This document shows positions 21,284 through 28,213 of a stretch of DNA of 55,694 bases, one piece after another (position 1 is the stretch's first letter; every line of letters begins with the position of its first letter). A program made the translations under genes and the position numbers. This DNA is from Aquificaceae bacterium (GTDB lineage: Bacteria > Aquificota > Aquificia > Aquificales > Aquificaceae): assembly GCA_015490155.1 (NCBI GenBank), contig WFYI01000025.1, positions 1 through 55,694 of the forward strand, given 5' to 3'. The notes beneath the pieces were generated by a model, which ran no database searches, had not been told where the DNA came from, and saw only the letters and a list, made by a program, of their open reading frames with translations.

Positions 21284-21640
21284 ATGAAAATACTAATAGT
21301 TGACGATGAGATGGCTATAGGTAAAGTGCTGGATACCGTATTTTCCAACAAGGGATATGAAACCAAGTGGATAAGCAGTGCGGAGAACATATCCAAGGAG
21401 GTGGAGGAATTTAAGCCGGACTTAGTACTTTTGGACGTGAACATGCCCGGAAAGTCCGGTTTTGAAGCGCTGAGGGAGATAAGACAGAACTCGAACATAC
21501 CGGTTATAATGATTACAGTTCTCTCTCAGGAGTTTAACATAGACAAAGCCTACGAGCTGGGAGCGGTGGATTACGTGGTTAAGCCCTTCAGTATTCAACA
21601 TCTGGTAAGGAAGGTAGAGGCGGTTCTCGGTGATAAGTAA
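21284..21640 (+). CDS. Stand-alone response-regulator receiver (CheY-like)
   Basis: A 118-aa single-domain receiver with no output domain. The acidic pair D7-D8, the phosphoacceptor D51 in LVLLDVNMPGKSGF, the Thr of MITVLS and the Lys of VVKPF are all present, so it should be phosphorylated. It is the first gene of the exopolysaccharide-type cluster and overlaps the next gene by 11 bases. The last gene of the same cluster is a histidine kinase without a sensor domain; the two probably form the cluster's own phosphorelay, acting by protein-protein contact and not by DNA binding. Target candidates are the membrane HEAT-repeat protein or the glycosyltransferase. Confidence 0.9.
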   Translation: MKILIVDDEMAIGKVLDTVFSNKGYETKWISSAENISKEVEEFKPDLVLLDVNMPGKSGFEALREIRQNSNIPVIMITVLSQEFNIDKAYELGAVDYVVKPFSIQHLVRKVEAVLGDK

Positions 21641-23204
21641 AGTACCGGTCTTACTTTTAGCTCTACCGATTATTGCCTTTTCACTTACGCCGGGCAAAGA
21701 CTATTACTGCGTTCAGCTGGCAAGCTCAAAGAATCCTGAGAGACTCATGAAGTTGGTAAGGCACGCAAGCTCTTATCCGAACCTGAGGATAGAACGGATA
21801 AACGGCACCTATACACTCAGAGCCGGGTTTTTTGAAAAGGTAAAAGACTCAAAGAACTTAGAGAGAGTAGTAAGAAGTGCCTTTAAAGATGCCTTTACGA
21901 GAGTATGTTCTTACAAGCCCGAGAGGGTAGTATTCCCGAAGAAGAAGTCACCAGCTTTAGAAAAACCGGAAAGGAGAACCTACACCTACGAAGTGGGTAT
22001 GAAACTATCCCGCCTGTACTTAAAGAAAAAGGATTTTAAGAAAGCTGAAGAGCTTTACAGAGACCTTTTAAAGGTTCACCCCAACAACAGGGAAATAAAG
22101 CTAATGCTGGCAAGGGTTCTATACTGGCAGAAGAAGTACGACGAGGCTTTAGAGCTTTACCGTGAGCTTGAAAGGGAAGATAACAGGCTCGCCAACGAGA
22201 GGAGAAAGGTTGAGATAAGCAGGATACTGAGTATCGCGGACAGGTTAGAGAAAGAAGGTAAAATAGAAGAGGCTATAAAAGTTCTTGAGAGACTTTACAA
22301 GGAGGAAAGGGGAAACTACAGCGTGGGTTTGAAGTTGGGAAAGCTATACATAAAGAGGGGTTTAAGGAACAGGGCGCATGAGGTTTTCGGAGAGCTCGTT
22401 TTGAAATATCCGAAGGATAAAGACATAAAATACCTTTACAGGATTACCTCTCCAAGAGAGGTGGTAAAAAAAAAGAGCGTATCAGAAAGGAGGGAGAAAG
22501 CTATAAGCTCACAGAAAAAGGAACTGCTTAATTATGCAAGGCTTGGAGCAAGGTACTTCTGGTACTCCAACAGGGACTTTGAAGACAAAGAGCTGTATCT
22601 AAACTTTAAGCTGAAAAACCTACTACCCGGTTCCTTGATAGGCACAGTTAGGGTTGTAAACAGGTTCAGAAAGGAGAATAAACAGCTCGGGCTTGAGTAT
22701 TACAGAAAGCTATTCCCCAAGTGGTGGGGTTACCTGTCTTCAGATTTTTCTCCCGAGGCGGACTTCTTAGCCAAGTACTCCTTTGGTGGGGGTGTGTTCA
22801 GGTCTATGAAGAGCTTAGAGGTAGGGGGGAACGTAAGGTACATGAGATTTAAGAACTCCGAGGTACTTCTTTTAATTCCCTCTGTATTCATGTACCTACC
22901 GTTGAACATGTCAAACCAAACCTCCCTTTACATAAATCCCAAGAGGGGAACTTACACGCTCTTAAATAAGCTCTATTACACGGGAGAGAAGTTAGAAAGC
23001 TTTGTATCACTTTCCATGGGAACCTCATCGGAGAGACTCGAAGCTAGGGAGGACTTTCTAAGGTACTCTACCCTGTCAATATCCGCCGGGTTTGAGTACG
23101 ACCTGAGCAAAAGGTTTTCGCTGGGGGGCTCCTTTAAGTTTGAGAATAGGAAAGAGCTTTACAAAAGATATGGGATAGAAGGTTATGCCAGGTTTAGGTG
23201 GTGA
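21630..23204 (+). CDS. Outer-membrane exporter-like protein: SPOR-like + TPR + YaiO-type beta-barrel
   Basis: A 524-aa exported protein. Residues 1-18 are a signal peptide. Residues 24-90 resemble a SPOR-type domain (YYCVQLASSKNPERLMKLV and later GTYTLRAGFFEK). Residues 118-270 hold four TPR units, for example KKDFKKAEELYRDLLKVHP and QKKYDEALELYRELERE. From about 300 to the end alternating hydrophobic strands end in a terminal aromatic residue (YARFRW), as in outer-membrane barrels of the YaiO family. A TPR-plus-barrel layout is that of polysaccharide exporters such as PgaA. With the glycosyltransferase two genes downstream this is likely the outer-membrane exit of a polymer. It overlaps both neighbours (11 and 20 bases). 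Confidence 0.75.
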   Translation: MISKVPVLLLALPIIAFSLTPGKDYYCVQLASSKNPERLMKLVRHASSYPNLRIERINGTYTLRAGFFEKVKDSKNLERVVRSAFKDAFTRVCSYKPERVVFPKKKSPALEKPERRTYTYEVGMKLSRLYLKKKDFKKAEELYRDLLKVHPNNREIKLMLARVLYWQKKYDEALELYRELEREDNRLANERRKVEISRILSIADRLEKEGKIEEAIKVLERLYKEERGNYSVGLKLGKLYIKRGLRNRAHEVFGELVLKYPKDKDIKYLYRITSPREVVKKKSVSERREKAISSQKKELLNYARLGARYFWYSNRDFEDKELYLNFKLKNLLPGSLIGTVRVVNRFRKENKQLGLEYYRKLFPKWWGYLSSDFSPEADFLAKYSFGGGVFRSMKSLEVGGNVRYMRFKNSEVLLLIPSVFMYLPLNMSNQTSLYINPKRGTYTLLNKLYYTGEKLESFVSLSMGTSSERLEAREDFLRYSTLSISAGFEYDLSKRFSLGGSFKFENRKELYKRYGIEGYARFRW

Positions 23205-24330
23205 GCTTCCCGAGCTTCTCGATAAGATACAGTTTATTCCCCCTCCGGTACTAAAAGAGATACTAATAAAGCTTATTCTCACCCTCTTTCTAATAAACGT
23301 AGTTCTATTTGCCATCACGGTAGGACAACGGCTGTGGGTTGATTACAGGGATAGAAGGTACAGAAAAGCCTACGAGAAATACACCGAGCAGGTCTCTCAG
23401 GCTCTATTCACCGAAGGTAAAGTAGACAAACCGAAAACGAGGATAGAGATGGAAGCGCTGGGCGATGTGTGCATAGAGATAAGGAGGAAGTTCAAAGGCA
23501 TGGTAGAGGAGAGAATACTTGAGATTGCCGAGGATACGGGTGTGATTAGGTATTACAAAAAGCAGACGAAGAGCTTTCTAATTCAAACGAAGATAACCGC
23601 TTACGAAAAACTCAGCTACCTGGGAGTAACATCTGTTAAGCCCTCCCTTAAGGAGGAAATCAAGAAAGAGGATAAGGATTGGGTTGTGGGAAAGCTGTGT
23701 TTTGCTTACGTAAACCTCTCGGAGACTGTCGAGGACGTCGGATTTGTGTTTAGCAGGTTATCCGAGTTTAAAACTATAAGCCTGAAGTTCATAGAGTTTC
23801 TATGGTTCGAAACCATAAAGAAGTTTAACGAAAGGGGAGAGCTGTCTAACCTAATAGATTTTGTGAGAGACAGATTTTACCTGAGGTACTATCAAGCGGA
23901 CACGCTGAGAGCGTTTATAGAAGCACTGGGAAACTTCGGAGCCGTAGAAGGCACAGATTTCATTCTCGAGGTTTACGAGGAAAAGGGGGAGGACATTCTG
24001 ATTAGACTAAGCTGTATAAGGTCTTTGGGTAACATGGGTTATAGTGATTTTTGCAGGATTTTTATTGAGAATGTGAGCCATAAGGACTGGAGAGTGAGGG
24101 CGGTGGTGTTCAAGTTTTCCTATCTGTGTGAGAGAGAGGTGGTTATGGATTACCTTGAGAAGGGGTTAGGAGACGAAAACTACTACGTTAGGATGAACGC
24201 CGGAAGGGCGTTCCTGTTCTTCGGAGATAATGCAAAACCTGTACTTGAGAAACTTTTGAATTCGGAAGACACCTTCACAAGAGATACAGTTACTTACCTG
24301 CTCGAGGAACTGGAGGCTAAGAATGCTTAA
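23185..24330 (+). CDS. Membrane-anchored HEAT-repeat protein of the exopolysaccharide cluster
   Basis: A 381-aa protein with one strong transmembrane helix at about residues 28-48 (ILIKLILTLFLINVVLFAIT) after a short Pro-rich start, and a large cytoplasmic part. From about 215 onward alpha-helical repeats of HEAT type are seen, such as YYQADTLRAFIEALGNFG, ILIRLSCIRSLGNMG, DWRVRAVVFKFSYL and NYYVRMNAGRAFLFFGD. HEAT repeats usually bind proteins. Lying between the export barrel and the processive glycosyltransferase with overlaps of 20 and 8 bases, it probably organises the synthase or receives a signal from the cluster's receiver. I do not know a characterised homologue. Confidence 0.7.
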   Translation: MPGLGGELPELLDKIQFIPPPVLKEILIKLILTLFLINVVLFAITVGQRLWVDYRDRRYRKAYEKYTEQVSQALFTEGKVDKPKTRIEMEALGDVCIEIRRKFKGMVEERILEIAEDTGVIRYYKKQTKSFLIQTKITAYEKLSYLGVTSVKPSLKEEIKKEDKDWVVGKLCFAYVNLSETVEDVGFVFSRLSEFKTISLKFIEFLWFETIKKFNERGELSNLIDFVRDRFYLRYYQADTLRAFIEALGNFGAVEGTDFILEVYEEKGEDILIRLSCIRSLGNMGYSDFCRIFIENVSHKDWRVRAVVFKFSYLCEREVVMDYLEKGLGDENYYVRMNAGRAFLFFGDNAKPVLEKLLNSEDTFTRDTVTYLLEELEAKNA

Positions 24331-25747
24331 AGCCTTGGCTTACTTCCTTCTGGGATTTCAACTATTCATACTTATTTACTTCTTCATAGTTAACGCGATA
24401 TACACGATGTTCATCGCTGTAGCTGTTTTTCACATATTCAGGTTCATGATTTTGATACGCAGGGAGAGGCTTGAGCTTATGCTTTCCAACGTTCTCTACA
24501 GACCCATATCTATACTCGTCCCCGCTTACAACGAGGAAGAGACCATAGTTTCGAGTCTTAAATCCCTGCTTAATCTTCACTACCCTGAGTTCGAGGTGGT
24601 TGTTATAAACGATGGCTCAACGGATAACACCATGGAAGTACTAAAAAAAGAGCTTAAGCTCGTAAGAATAGACAAACCTGTAAGAAAGGTAATAGAGCAT
24701 AAACCGGTGAAGGACATATACATATCTCTTGACTTCCCCAACTTAATAGTAGTCGATAAGGAAAACGGAGGAAAGGCCGATGCCCTTAACTGCGGTATAA
24801 ACGTATGTAATTATCCCCTTTTCTGTTGCATAGATGCGGATTCCATCTTAGAGGAGGAAGCACTACTAAGGGCTTCACGGTTATTCGTAGAGGATAAACT
24901 CGTGATAGCCACCGGAGGAACTGTAAGGGTTCTCAATAACAGCGTTGTTAAGGGTGGTAGAGTGGTTGAGATAAAAGCTCCCAAGAAGTGGGTGGAGATA
25001 TTTCAAGTCATAGAGTACACGAGAGGATTCTTGAGCGGGAGAACGGCATGGAATATATTCAACAGCTTACTCATAATATCCGGAGCTTTTGGTATCTTTC
25101 GTAAAGATGCGGTCATGATGGTAGGAGGTTACAGGCACACCGTAGGCGAGGACATGGATTTGGTAGTCAGGCTCCATAGGCACTTTATAGAGGAAAAGAT
25201 ACCTTACAAGATACTGTTCGTGCCTGACCCTATATGTTGGACACAGGTTCCTTCGGACTTAAAGTCCCTTCTGAAGCAGAGGAACAGGTGGCATAGAGGG
25301 CTTATAGATAGCCTTTGGTTCAGCAAGAAAATGTTTTTCAATCCGAGGTACGGCTGGGTGGGTATGCTGGGATACCCTTACTTCGTCTTTGTTGAGGCAC
25401 TGGGACCCATGGTTGAGTTTCTGGGTTACCTCGGAGTGGTTCTCTTTTACCTATTCGGAATGCTCAACAGGGAGTTCGCTCTTTTATTCTTCTTACTTGC
25501 CTTTCTCTGGGGGATTTTAATAAGTGTAGGCTCTATCCTTATAGACAACCTCATGTACAGAAGATATGGACACTTTAAAGATATACTTAAGCTGTGTGTC
25601 TTTAGTATAATTGAGGCTTTCGGCTACAGACAGCTGATAGTTATGGAGCGCTTTGTAGCCCTATTCCAGTTCTGGTATCGAGCATGGGGAAAACCCAAAA
25701 GGAAAAGGATAGAGGGAAGAGAAGTTGAAAAAACTTCTTCTGCTTAG
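24323..25747 (+). CDS. Processive family-2 glycosyltransferase (PgaC/BcsA-like)
   Basis: A 474-aa membrane glycosyltransferase. Two N-terminal transmembrane segments (to about residue 45) precede the GT-A domain. ISILVPAYNEEETI starts the nucleotide-binding fold, VVINDGSTDNT carries the first aspartate, the DxD is in CIDADS, the acceptor-base motif is VGEDMD and the processive signature is QRNRW in LLKQRNRWHRG. At least three more membrane segments follow, with an amphipathic interface part. All catalytic residues are there, so it should polymerise a beta-linked sugar polymer at the inner membrane. YMR..GHF..-type ends recall PgaC, but no PgaB-type deacetylase is nearby. It overlaps the HEAT gene by 8 and the pseudophosphatase gene by 23 bases. 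Confidence 0.9.
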   Translation: MLKALAYFLLGFQLFILIYFFIVNAIYTMFIAVAVFHIFRFMILIRRERLELMLSNVLYRPISILVPAYNEEETIVSSLKSLLNLHYPEFEVVVINDGSTDNTMEVLKKELKLVRIDKPVRKVIEHKPVKDIYISLDFPNLIVVDKENGGKADALNCGINVCNYPLFCCIDADSILEEEALLRASRLFVEDKLVIATGGTVRVLNNSVVKGGRVVEIKAPKKWVEIFQVIEYTRGFLSGRTAWNIFNSLLIISGAFGIFRKDAVMMVGGYRHTVGEDMDLVVRLHRHFIEEKIPYKILFVPDPICWTQVPSDLKSLLKQRNRWHRGLIDSLWFSKKMFFNPRYGWVGMLGYPYFVFVEALGPMVEFLGYLGVVLFYLFGMLNREFALLFFLLAFLWGILISVGSILIDNLMYRRYGHFKDILKLCVFSIIEAFGYRQLIVMERFVALFQFWYRAWGKPKRKRIEGREVEKTSSA

Positions 25748-26225
25748 CTACGAATGGAGCCTCAGGTTAACCTTTGCCATAGTTATCTTGTTATCCGCTT
25801 CCGCTTTCTTACTTATATTGGTAGATTTCCCCAAGATGGACAGAGAACTGACTCTCCTCAGCCACTTAAAACAGAAGCCTAAGAAGGTAGCAAGAGGGCT
25901 GTGGATAGGTGGGTACCACTTCTCTGATAAGGAGTTCTTGAAATTTCTAAGGAAAAAAAGGATAGGTGTAGTTATATCCCTGCTCGACCCGGACATGGCA
26001 CACGAGAAGGAGCTTCTTCTTCAGGAGCGCCGTTTGTTGTCCTCAAGGGGAATCATACTTCAAAACGTTCCCATAAAGCCATTTATCAAAGATGAGAAGA
26101 AAATAGAAACCGCGCGTCGCTTAATAAAAACGTGGCGTAGAAGGGGTGTAAACGTTTATATTCATAGTTATCTCGGTAGGGTGAGGGTGGGCTACTTAAT
26201 GGAGGAAGTTAGGTATGGCGGGTAA
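25725..26225 (+). CDS. Membrane-anchored pseudophosphatase (DSP-like, catalytic Cys replaced by Ser)
   Basis: A 166-aa protein with an N-terminal transmembrane helix (FAIVILLSASAFLLILV near 17-33) and a small dual-specificity-phosphatase-like domain facing the periplasm or cytosol (topology not certain). The P-loop reads HSYLGRVR, so the HCX5R catalytic cysteine is Ser148 while Arg154 is kept. GLWIGGYHFSDKEF and IGVVISLLDPD are the strand-loop parts shared with the next gene. A Cys-to-Ser change is the classic substrate-trapping mutation of PTPs, so this protein could bind phosphorylated ligand without hydrolysing it. It overlaps its neighbours by 23 and 11 bases. It is a tandem paralogue of the next protein. 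Confidence 0.72.
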   Translation: MKKLLLLSYEWSLRLTFAIVILLSASAFLLILVDFPKMDRELTLLSHLKQKPKKVARGLWIGGYHFSDKEFLKFLRKKRIGVVISLLDPDMAHEKELLLQERRLLSSRGIILQNVPIKPFIKDEKKIETARRLIKTWRRRGVNVYIHSYLGRVRVGYLMEEVRYGG

Positions 26226-26694
26226 GATAGTTCGCGGAATATTCGTACTCGTATTTCTGGGCTATCTGCTCAGCATGGGTTCCGTTTACTTCAGCTACAT
26301 AGAGCCTTACATATTTCCTCTCAAGCTTATTCAGGGGGAAGCGAGACACGTTACGGAGAACGTGATAGCGGGTCCCTATCCCCACGAGAAAGACATAGAG
26401 AGGCTTTACAAGGTCAGCGGTGTAAAGGTCATTATCTCGCTGCTAAACCCATCTCTTCCCTTTGAAAAGAGCTTGCTTGAGAAAGAGAAAGAAATAACAG
26501 AAAAGTATGGACTGGAGTTCTACAATATCCCCATATCCTTTATCAACCTCAACAGCCCCGAGAACGTAAAGAATGTTTCCAAGGTATTGGATATAATTAA
26601 GAAGCATAAGGGAGATAAGATTTACGTTCACTGCTACTTGGGCAGGCACAGGGTGGAACTCGTCGTAAATAGGTTGATTGGGGCTGACTACTGA
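26215..26694 (+). CDS. Membrane-anchored dual-specificity-type phosphatase (HCX5R intact)
   Basis: A 159-aa paralogue of the preceding protein, with a transmembrane helix near residues 7-27 and an intact phosphatase loop HCYLGRHR (Cys140, Arg146). VIAGPYPHEKDIERL and VKVIISLLNPSLPFE correspond to GGYHFSDKEF and VVISLLDPDM in the pseudoenzyme. Small DSP-like enzymes of this kind act on phosphotyrosine, phosphoinositides or lipid pyrophosphates; the substrate is unknown. In a polysaccharide cluster a lipid-linked or tyrosine-phosphorylated target would make sense. Its TGA shares its A with the ATG of the next gene. Confidence 0.75.
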   Translation: MAGKIVRGIFVLVFLGYLLSMGSVYFSYIEPYIFPLKLIQGEARHVTENVIAGPYPHEKDIERLYKVSGVKVIISLLNPSLPFEKSLLEKEKEITEKYGLEFYNIPISFINLNSPENVKNVSKVLDIIKKHKGDKIYVHCYLGRHRVELVVNRLIGADY

Positions 26695-27638
26695 TGAAGT
26701 ATCTGTCAAGCGCATTTCTCACGTTAATTATTCTGAATGTATTAGCTTACGGTGAAGCGAAGCTTGAGGGTATAAACTTCATAAAAATAACTCAAGTGGA
26801 GGATAGGCTGAGCATATCCTATTACAAGGACAATCCCTTAAGGGAAGAGGGAAAAGCTGTATCCCCGGTGGATAGGTCTCCCGTATGCGGTGAGGGTAAA
26901 TCCCACTGGGCTTTATGGGTCTGGAATGCCAGAAAGCTGGAAAACAGATGGGAGGCGTTCTTACGAACCGTGAAGGACTGGGACATAGACAGGGTATATC
27001 TGCAGGTTAACGAAGCCCTTGAGCAAAGCCTATTGGACAGGATTAAGGCTCTGGGTCTCGAGGTGTTCTTGCTTGACGGTTCAAGAACTTACAGCCTAAA
27101 TTTTCCTCCCGAATTTCTCGGTAAGTTTGAGGTGGACGGTGTTCAGGTTGATATAGAGCCTTATCTGATGCCGGACTTCAATGTTAAAAAGGAGTACTAC
27201 CTGAGAGAGTACCTTAGGGTACTTAACGAGCTAAAACCAGCTATAAGGGGGAAAAGGTTGTCGGTGGTAATACCTTTCTGGTTTGACAAGCTCAAGCTGG
27301 GTGAAAAACCCATGCTCGAGTATATATTTGAAGTAGCGGACGAAGTGGTAATCATGGCTTATAGAGACAACTTTGAGGAGGCTTTGAACCTGTCTAAGGA
27401 AGAGATAGCCATGGGTGGCACCTACGGAAAACCTGTATTTATAGGTTTTGAGCTTCACAAACAAAAGGATGAGATTCACAGAGTTTACAGGGTGGATAGA
27501 AATGGGCTTGTTCATATCGGAACTTACAAGGTAAGAGGTAGCAAGCTAAGTATATCTAAAGAGAAGCTTAAAAGCGTGAGAAATGTGGAGTGTAAAGGGG
27601 TCTCAGGGTTCGTTATTCACAGTTTTGGAGCTATGTGA
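26694..27638 (+). CDS. Secreted TIM-barrel-like protein with DIEP motif (possible glycoside hydrolase)
   Basis: A 314-aa exported protein. Residues 1-21 form a signal peptide. The domain starts with HWALWVWNARKLENRWEAF, runs through alternating strands and helices (DIDRVYLQVNEALEQ, GLEVFLLDGS), and has VQVDIEPYLMPDF at 151-163 and VVIMAYRDNFEEAL near 225. An acidic pair at the end of a strand (D153, E155) followed by Pro is what glycoside-hydrolase-type barrels often use, so a polysaccharide-cleaving or -binding role in the cluster is plausible, but I know no named family with certainty. A lipoprotein at 52176-53081 shows the same order of motifs. The gene overlaps both neighbours by one base. 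Confidence 0.65.
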   Translation: MKYLSSAFLTLIILNVLAYGEAKLEGINFIKITQVEDRLSISYYKDNPLREEGKAVSPVDRSPVCGEGKSHWALWVWNARKLENRWEAFLRTVKDWDIDRVYLQVNEALEQSLLDRIKALGLEVFLLDGSRTYSLNFPPEFLGKFEVDGVQVDIEPYLMPDFNVKKEYYLREYLRVLNELKPAIRGKRLSVVIPFWFDKLKLGEKPMLEYIFEVADEVVIMAYRDNFEEALNLSKEEIAMGGTYGKPVFIGFELHKQKDEIHRVYRVDRNGLVHIGTYKVRGSKLSISKEKLKSVRNVECKGVSGFVIHSFGAM

Positions 27639-28213
27639 TGGATATGAAAACGGTTCTTATACACGAGCTTGCTAACAAGGTGTCTGCTCTGAAAAGTGTA
27701 TCGGAGCTGAATATAGAGTGTATAGACAGAAGCCTCGCCGAACTTATAGACAGCATAGACCTTATAGCTAAGTACATTCTGGATTTGGAAACCCTAAACC
27801 TTCACGAGAACATGAAGGAGGAAAAGCTGAAGCTGGGTAGGGTAATCGAGGACGTTATATCTGAGCTTAATATAATTGCAAACCTCAAATCTGTCAGCTT
27901 TGAGGTGTCCGGGTGCGAAGGGCTGGAAGTTCTATCTAAGGAGTTTATACTTAGAAGAAGTCTCTATAACATACTACACAACGCTGTTAAGTTCTCTCCG
28001 AAGGGAGAGAAGATAGGTATAAGATGTGCAGCTGAGGAGGGAAAAGCGGTCATAAACGTTGAGAACTCCGTGGACGAGGAAAGCCTTAAGAAAAGCAAAG
28101 GCTCAGGAATAGGCATGACTATAACCAGAAAGCTCACCGAGGTTATAAATGCCGAGATAAGACAGAACAGCAACGGCAGTAAAGTTACCACCGAGATAAT
28201 TCTAAAATTCTGA
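27638..28213 (+). CDS. Sensorless histidine kinase
   Basis: A 191-aa cytoplasmic kinase with no input domain. The phospho-accepting His is already at residue 9 (LIHELANKVSAL, compare HELRTPL), followed by the dimerisation helices and a HATPase domain: N-box LYNILHNAVKFSP, a worn G1 region VENSVDEESL in place of DNGPGI, and the G2 box KGSGIGMTI. ATP binding is therefore likely but not certain. It is the last gene of the exopolysaccharide cluster, which begins with a lone receiver. I choose the ATG at 27638, overlapping the previous stop by one base, with GGAG seven bases upstream. Confidence 0.82.
   Translation: MDMKTVLIHELANKVSALKSVSELNIECIDRSLAELIDSIDLIAKYILDLETLNLHENMKEEKLKLGRVIEDVISELNIIANLKSVSFEVSGCEGLEVLSKEFILRRSLYNILHNAVKFSPKGEKIGIRCAAEEGKAVINVENSVDEESLKKSKGSGIGMTITRKLTEVINAEIRQNSNGSKVTTEIILKF

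Follow-up and report, generated by a model that had tools for sequence, protein, structure and literature searches.

A conserved, probable bacterial pseudophosphatase encoded beside its Cys-bearing paralogue in a predicted exopolysaccharide cluster of Aquificaceae

The A/B gene pair and its surroundings

The window analyzed here, a 55,694-nucleotide stretch of DNA from a member of the Aquificaceae, carries two overlapping genes, designated A and B, whose products are membrane-anchored proteins with a predicted PTP fold. Gene A (25725-26225; forward strand, as for all genes described below) starts with TTG and encodes a protein of 166 aa that its open reading frame, an alignment of its orthologues and an AlphaFold2 model identify as a probable pseudophosphatase. 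Gene B (26215-26694) starts with ATG and encodes a protein of 159 aa whose P-loop Cys is present in all of its ten orthologues, making it the likely catalytic partner. The overlap between the two genes comprises 11 bp (26215-26225), consistent with translational coupling. As stated in the original prediction, the P-loops read HSYLGRVR in A (CAT AGT TAT CTC GGT AGG GTG AGG), where the loop and the following helix span positions 26163-26222, and HCYLGRHR in B (CAC TGC TAC TTG GGC AGG CAC AGG). The common layout that it had attributed to both proteins was recovered as well, with a single, strongly hydrophobic N-terminal segment (residues 15-33 in A and 8-26 in B) followed by a small soluble domain of ~120 residues with the predicted PTP fold. 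A and B share 25% sequence identity (E 2e-10) and are thus paralogues; B has no other close relative within this genome.

The PTP-like domains of A and B probably reside in the periplasm, with the N-terminus facing inward, as suggested by a short basic N-terminus ahead of the membrane helix, the near absence of Cys and the export-rich nature of the operon. The segment flanking the helix on its N-terminal side has a net charge of 0 to +3, with a positive-inside contrast that is weak for A. Cys residues are lacking entirely from eight of the nine A proteins, and the P-loop Cys is the only one in nine of the ten B proteins, a scarcity that suits an extracytoplasmic domain. In B, the juxtamembrane stretch YFSYIEPYLFPLR (26287-26322; residues 25-36) is nearly invariant and thus better conserved than most of the domain, suggesting that it may form a membrane-proximal binding surface.

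The surrounding cluster is headed by a gene for a receiver-only response regulator (21284-21640; Response_reg, 2.1e-29), followed by one for a protein with TPR motifs and a YaiO-type outer-membrane barrel that is likely, by prediction, to mediate polymer export (21630-23204; TIGR04390 OMP_YaiO_dom, 1.7e-23, over the cut-off), a gene for a membrane-anchored HEAT-repeat protein (23185-24330; HEAT_2, 9.3e-11) and a gene for a GT2 polysaccharide synthase resembling PgaC/IcaA (24323-25747; Glycos_transf_2, 1.4e-24; TIGR03937 PgaC_IcaA, 2.5e-41, which lies below the cut-off of that family), whose end overlaps the start of A. Downstream of B lie a gene for an exported protein (26694-27638) that carries a DGVQVDIEPY motif, is probably glycoside-hydrolase-like when judged by eye and did not match any Pfam or NCBIfam family, and a gene for a small cytosolic histidine-kinase-like protein (27635-28213; HATPase_c, 4.3e-08), followed by lepA. 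Judged by its gene content, the cluster around A and B is a synthase-dependent exopolysaccharide cluster. Its HEAT-repeat gene was found only in genomes that also bear A, B or both, and an orthologue of the HATPase gene is present in most of the relatives' loci. A literature search for clusters combining YaiO and HEAT proteins yielded nothing useful.

Conservation of the nucleophile position and distribution of the pair

The proposal that the nucleophile of A has been replaced as a conserved trait called for a comparison of orthologues, and in particular for a search for A proteins that still carry Cys. Among the nine A orthologues, each from a separate genome and with the window included, the nucleophile position is occupied by Ser in eight cases and by Gly in one (G015, with the loop HGYFGRFR), and Cys was found in none (0/9). 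Cys is in turn retained in the B orthologues without exception (10/10), so that the comparison did not refute the proposal. The Ser codons of A are invariably AGT or AGC, a single base away from the Cys codons TGT and TGC, and synonymous sites are mostly near saturation between genomes, so that a reversion to Cys has had ample chance to occur. A sequencing error or a local mutation as the source of the Ser is ruled out by the presence of Ser or Gly in all nine orthologues.

All nine A reading frames are open, and dN/dS values among three close genomes (G016, G021 and G023) range from 0.13 to 0.37 for A and from 0.06 to 0.13 for B, indicating at the sequence level that A is under purifying selection, with a constraint weaker than that on B. 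The evolutionary rate of A is about two to four times that of B, and A sits on a long branch in the tree, in which it forms a single clade with a support of 100/100. This monophyly, together with the purifying selection, points to one old loss of the Cys that has since been maintained. Summed over the A tree, there were ~5.8 changes per column, and the Ser position changed once. Moreover, invariant positions are concentrated in the P-loop of A, where they account for five of eight residues, versus 20 of 152 elsewhere in the protein (Fisher p 0.003), and the pattern H-x-Y-x-G-R-x-R is common to the loops of all 19 proteins (nine A and ten B). The main role of the loop Arg in PTPs is to hold the phosphate. 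Judging from these alignments, A keeps the phosphate-holding part of the loop while its nucleophile is gone. With a predicted PTP fold and a catalytic Cys that is replaced across its orthologues, the assignment of A as a conserved bacterial pseudophosphatase appears well supported. The same Cys-to-Ser change is the standard laboratory substrate-trap mutation, which abolishes turnover in the PTPs studied.

Whole-genome searches of 136 Aquificota genomes (E 0.001) identified A or B in 11 of them, all from two genera of the Aquificaceae; at the same threshold, the pair was missing from G063, the second genome in the set for the genus of the window, and from the rest of the phylum. Besides the window, a pattern-based scan of genome contigs gave a single genome; one of the relatives is the Aquificaceae MAG JALSTO. 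A plasmid search with B returned one weak match, from Azospirillum (E 2e-3), and a search of PHROGs gave no match. In all seven genomes with both genes on one contig, A and B overlap, by 8, 11 or 20 bp, and the pair usually sits behind the gene for the PgaC-like synthase. In G013, the two genes occur on separate contigs, A behind the GT2 gene and with a shortened C-terminus, B ahead of the glycoside-hydrolase-like gene. Two incomplete genomes carry one member each. In G019 (85% complete), B lies directly behind the GT2 gene, with no A found and the contig ending 158 bp past B. In G017 (79% complete), an archease gene and miaB flank a solitary A with an altered N-terminus, and neither the GT2 nor the HEAT gene was found. 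At its locus (L045, 1116-1574), this lone A has a changed membrane segment and gives the impression of a remnant left behind by deletion of the remaining operon. A and B thus occur together usually but not always, and their genetic pairing is well supported. A distant cluster in G047 (L089, 2943-10236) encodes a GT2 with 44% identity, a HEAT protein, a large TPR protein, a YaiO-like barrel and a polysaccharide deacetylase; since neither A nor B was found in it, the pair appears to be an accessory rather than a core part of such clusters.

Predicted fold and departures from textbook phosphatases

AlphaFold2 models built on the 19-row alignment reached a pLDDT of 88.3 for A and 87.7 for B. Both predicted structures adopt the PTP alpha/beta fold around the P-loop, placing the proteins in the PTP/DSP superfamily, and superimpose on many PTPs and DSPs over ~110 residues at roughly 1.7-3 A, with Z scores of 12-14. 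The best solved matches of the A model were TkPTP (Z 13.6), AtPFA-DSP1 (Z 12.8) and STYX (2r0b, Z 12.8), and those of the B model DUF442 (3gxh, Z 13.8), TkPTP (12.6), Siw14 (12.3) and STYX (12.2). A lack of structural similarity to PTPs would have spoken against the original prediction, and the models, with Z scores of about 13, show the opposite. Sequence profiles agree weakly with the PTP fold, and the best Pfam match of B is Y_phosphatase2. A chance resemblance to PTPs is ruled out by the fold matches in combination with these weak but consistent Pfam matches.

The two proteins differ from textbook enzymes in several respects. DSPs extend past alpha4 with more helices and with the loop that positions water for its attack, and the residue following the P-loop Arg is usually Ser or Thr in the family. 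A and B both end about 10 to 20 residues past the P-loop Arg, one helix on, and this Arg is followed by Val in B and in most A proteins. The place of the D-loop Asp is taken by Ser or Gly in B and by Lys or Asn in A. B contains an invariant Glu (Glu116) on the same loop, eight residues beyond the canonical Asp place, which might substitute for the general-acid Asp; the D-loop of A is four residues shorter and has no invariant acid. The description of B as the intact copy of the pair therefore stands for the HCX5R signature, since Cys and Arg are present in all ten orthologues, but not for the remainder of the active site, which lacks the D-loop Asp, has Val after the Arg and is devoid of helices beyond the one that follows the P-loop. 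Given these departures, B may be a weak phosphatase or no phosphatase. The missing Asp alone does not imply a loss of activity, because AtPFA-DSP1 and Siw14 act on inositol pyrophosphates without a D-loop Asp (PMC9038691).

Siw14 and other PFA-DSPs resemble B in their P-loop (HCxxGKHR, compared with HCYLGRHR) and in having a D-loop that lacks the canonical acid (PMC9038691). They differ from it in being soluble eukaryotic proteins with an alpha5-alpha6 loop, a Thr after the Arg and an inositol pyrophosphate substrate, whereas B has the sequence HCYLGRHRV in place of the PFA-DSP motif HCxxGKHRTG, lacks the Thr and stops after an alpha4-like helix. The best structural match of B is the DUF442 phosphatase-like protein from Shewanella (3gxh/3gxg; Z 13.8, 1.7 A over 109 residues), with 3gxh also being the second-best sequence match of the joint profile; unlike B, it has no membrane anchor in the crystal construct. 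We know of no paired Ser form of DUF442.

A possible role in the control of exopolysaccharide synthesis

A and B may descend from a single atypical phosphatase of the dual-specificity type, with a PTP fold, that was duplicated in this lineage of Aquificaceae. The single N-terminal helix would anchor each of them in the inner membrane, with the PTP-like domain probably in the periplasm, where both would serve the synthase-dependent exopolysaccharide machine. B could act on, or at least grip, a phosphorylated group near the synthase on the outer side of the inner membrane; it would probably be a specialized phosphatase and, because the canonical general-acid Asp is missing, perhaps slow or directed at an activated or pyrophosphate-like phosphoester. 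A, having lost the nucleophile and the conserved D-loop acid and kept the phosphate-gripping loop, should bind a phosphorylated ligand without hydrolyzing it. It would most likely be a regulatory partner of B or a competitor for its substrate, either shielding the ligand or, when bound to B, altering B activity, and would thereby set the activity of the polysaccharide synthase. Drawing on sequence, predicted models and analogy, we favor with moderate confidence the reading that A and B are a periplasm-facing phosphatase/pseudophosphatase pair that tunes exopolysaccharide synthesis.

The original prediction went further and proposed a sensor and an eraser acting on one phospho-ligand. This proposal is supported in part. 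Its first element, a pseudoenzyme A that binds phosphorylated groups, is reasonable in view of the predicted PTP fold, the conserved Cys-to-Ser replacement and the invariant loop. Efficient erasing by B and constant joint action of the two proteins found no support, and neither did a shared ligand, which the difference between the D-loops of A and B makes doubtful. A natural, periplasm-facing substrate-trap pair that jointly reads and erases a phosphate mark controlling the exopolysaccharide synthase is thus a tentative idea that we are inclined to doubt. If true, it would constitute a bacterial counterpart of STYX and the MTMR pairs, built on a minimal, C-terminally shortened PTP fold.

Several other explanations deserve consideration. 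A could be a purely structural component whose membrane and juxtamembrane segments keep B or the synthase within a hetero-oligomer, with a P-loop that serves folding rather than ligand binding. The nearly invariant juxtamembrane stretch of B, to which a related stretch exists in A, the production of both proteins from overlapping genes and the structural roles that the Gly, Tyr and His of the P-loop could have would all fit such an arrangement. We nevertheless consider it unlikely, given that neither Arg in the P-loop of A varies, that conservation is enriched in this loop and that A occurs alone in G017 and B without A in G019. It is distinctly improbable that the constraint on A has been relaxed and that the gene is a duplicate in decay, with no function of its own: its fast evolution and long branch, the loss of the acid loop, the shortened C-terminus in G013 and the possible loss of the gene in G019 are what decay would produce, but nine open frames, dN/dS values well below 1, five invariant P-loop positions, an overlap with B that is kept in 7/7 one-contig genomes and a Ser position that changed once over ~5.8 changes per column argue against it.

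The remaining alternatives concern the chemistry of the pair. Sulfur is oxidized by many Aquificaceae, and B could belong to the rhodanese-phosphatase group as a persulfide-handling or otherwise cysteine-based protein, in which case A would be its inactive relative. Apart from this metabolic context, the idea could draw on DUF442 (3gxh) as the closest solved structure, on a weak match to Blh, a sulfur transferase/dioxygenase, within its N-terminal part (NF040641, E 0.003) and on the combination of a Val after the Arg with the missing canonical general acid. The HCX5R loop with Gly at the DSP place, the best Pfam match to Y_phosphatase2 and an operon that concerns polysaccharide rather than sulfur render it rather improbable. 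Finally, A might still hydrolyze phosphoesters, using Ser, a possible nucleophile in an otherwise intact loop, or another route. Such activity is highly improbable in light of the loss of turnover upon Cys-to-Ser exchange in the PTPs studied, the Gly found in one orthologue, which is unable to act as a nucleophile, and the lack of a conserved acid in the A D-loop.

The phosphatase/pseudophosphatase reading has precedents in eukaryotes. STYX has Gly120 in place of the Cys, with activity revived by the exchange G120C, and it binds ERK (ERK2) in competition with DUSP4 (PMC10211241). Like A, it combines a PTP/DSP fold with an HCX5R loop that is kept apart from the Cys, whose place is taken by Gly in STYX and by Ser or Gly in A; unlike A, it is a soluble member of the human DUSP family with full C-terminal helices and without an active paralogue encoded alongside. 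Inactive and active paralogues form pairs in myotubularins, as in the case of inactive MTMR13, which raises the activity of MTMR2 (PMC10211241), although these proteins are large eukaryotic lipid phosphatases, and physical contact between A and B is conjectural. Among bacterial proteins, TpbA (PA3885), a periplasmic DSP of Pseudomonas aeruginosa that restrains biofilm formation and Pel via the diguanylate cyclase TpbB (PMC4409338), is comparable in that it links an extracytoplasmic DSP, a location that is putative for A and B, to exopolysaccharide control, and its structure (4r0t) matches the A model with a Foldseek E of 1.5e-4. TpbA differs from A and B in that it carries a signal peptide, uses Asp105 as its general acid and depends for solubility on a C-terminal helix (PMC4409338). 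It is not known to have a pseudoenzyme partner. A and B end one helix past the P-loop, and because both the Asp and the C-terminal helix are missing, we do not class them with TpbA. By analogy, it is possible that they work like it, and in view of the 16 GGDEF matches and one clear Ser/Thr kinase domain in the genome, a TpbA-like route via c-di-GMP is conceivable. On these comparisons, the pair is best read as an analogue of TpbA, STYX and the MTMR pairs that differs from each of them.

If these predictions hold, the laboratory C-to-S trap has a natural equivalent that evolution has preserved alongside its Cys form. To our knowledge, pseudophosphatases have been studied almost only in eukaryotes. 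Our literature search for bacterial pseudophosphatases, which covered the titles and abstracts of the papers listed, found no bacterial case with a PTP fold; a review of the rhodanese-phosphatase superfamily (PMC10034599), outside this coverage, may mention such inactive forms. The A/B pair may thus offer a compact model for regulation by a dead phosphatase and a way into a new kind of control by phosphate over how deep-branching thermophiles secrete polysaccharide, while its minimal fold, without the post-alpha4 helices, tests what the PTP core needs to work.

Two further observations concern the neighbors of the pair. The cluster has the gene for the receiver-only protein (21284-21640) at its head and that for the HATPase protein (27635-28213) at its tail, an arrangement suggestive of a split two-component pair that could regulate it. 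An orthologue of the exported protein (26694-27638) adjoins B in seven relatives and is absent beside B in G024; its relatives share a conserved DG(V/F/Y)Q(V/I)D(I/L)EPY motif, with lipoprotein-like versions in G013 and G022, and may represent a new glycoside-hydrolase-like family of polysaccharide clusters.
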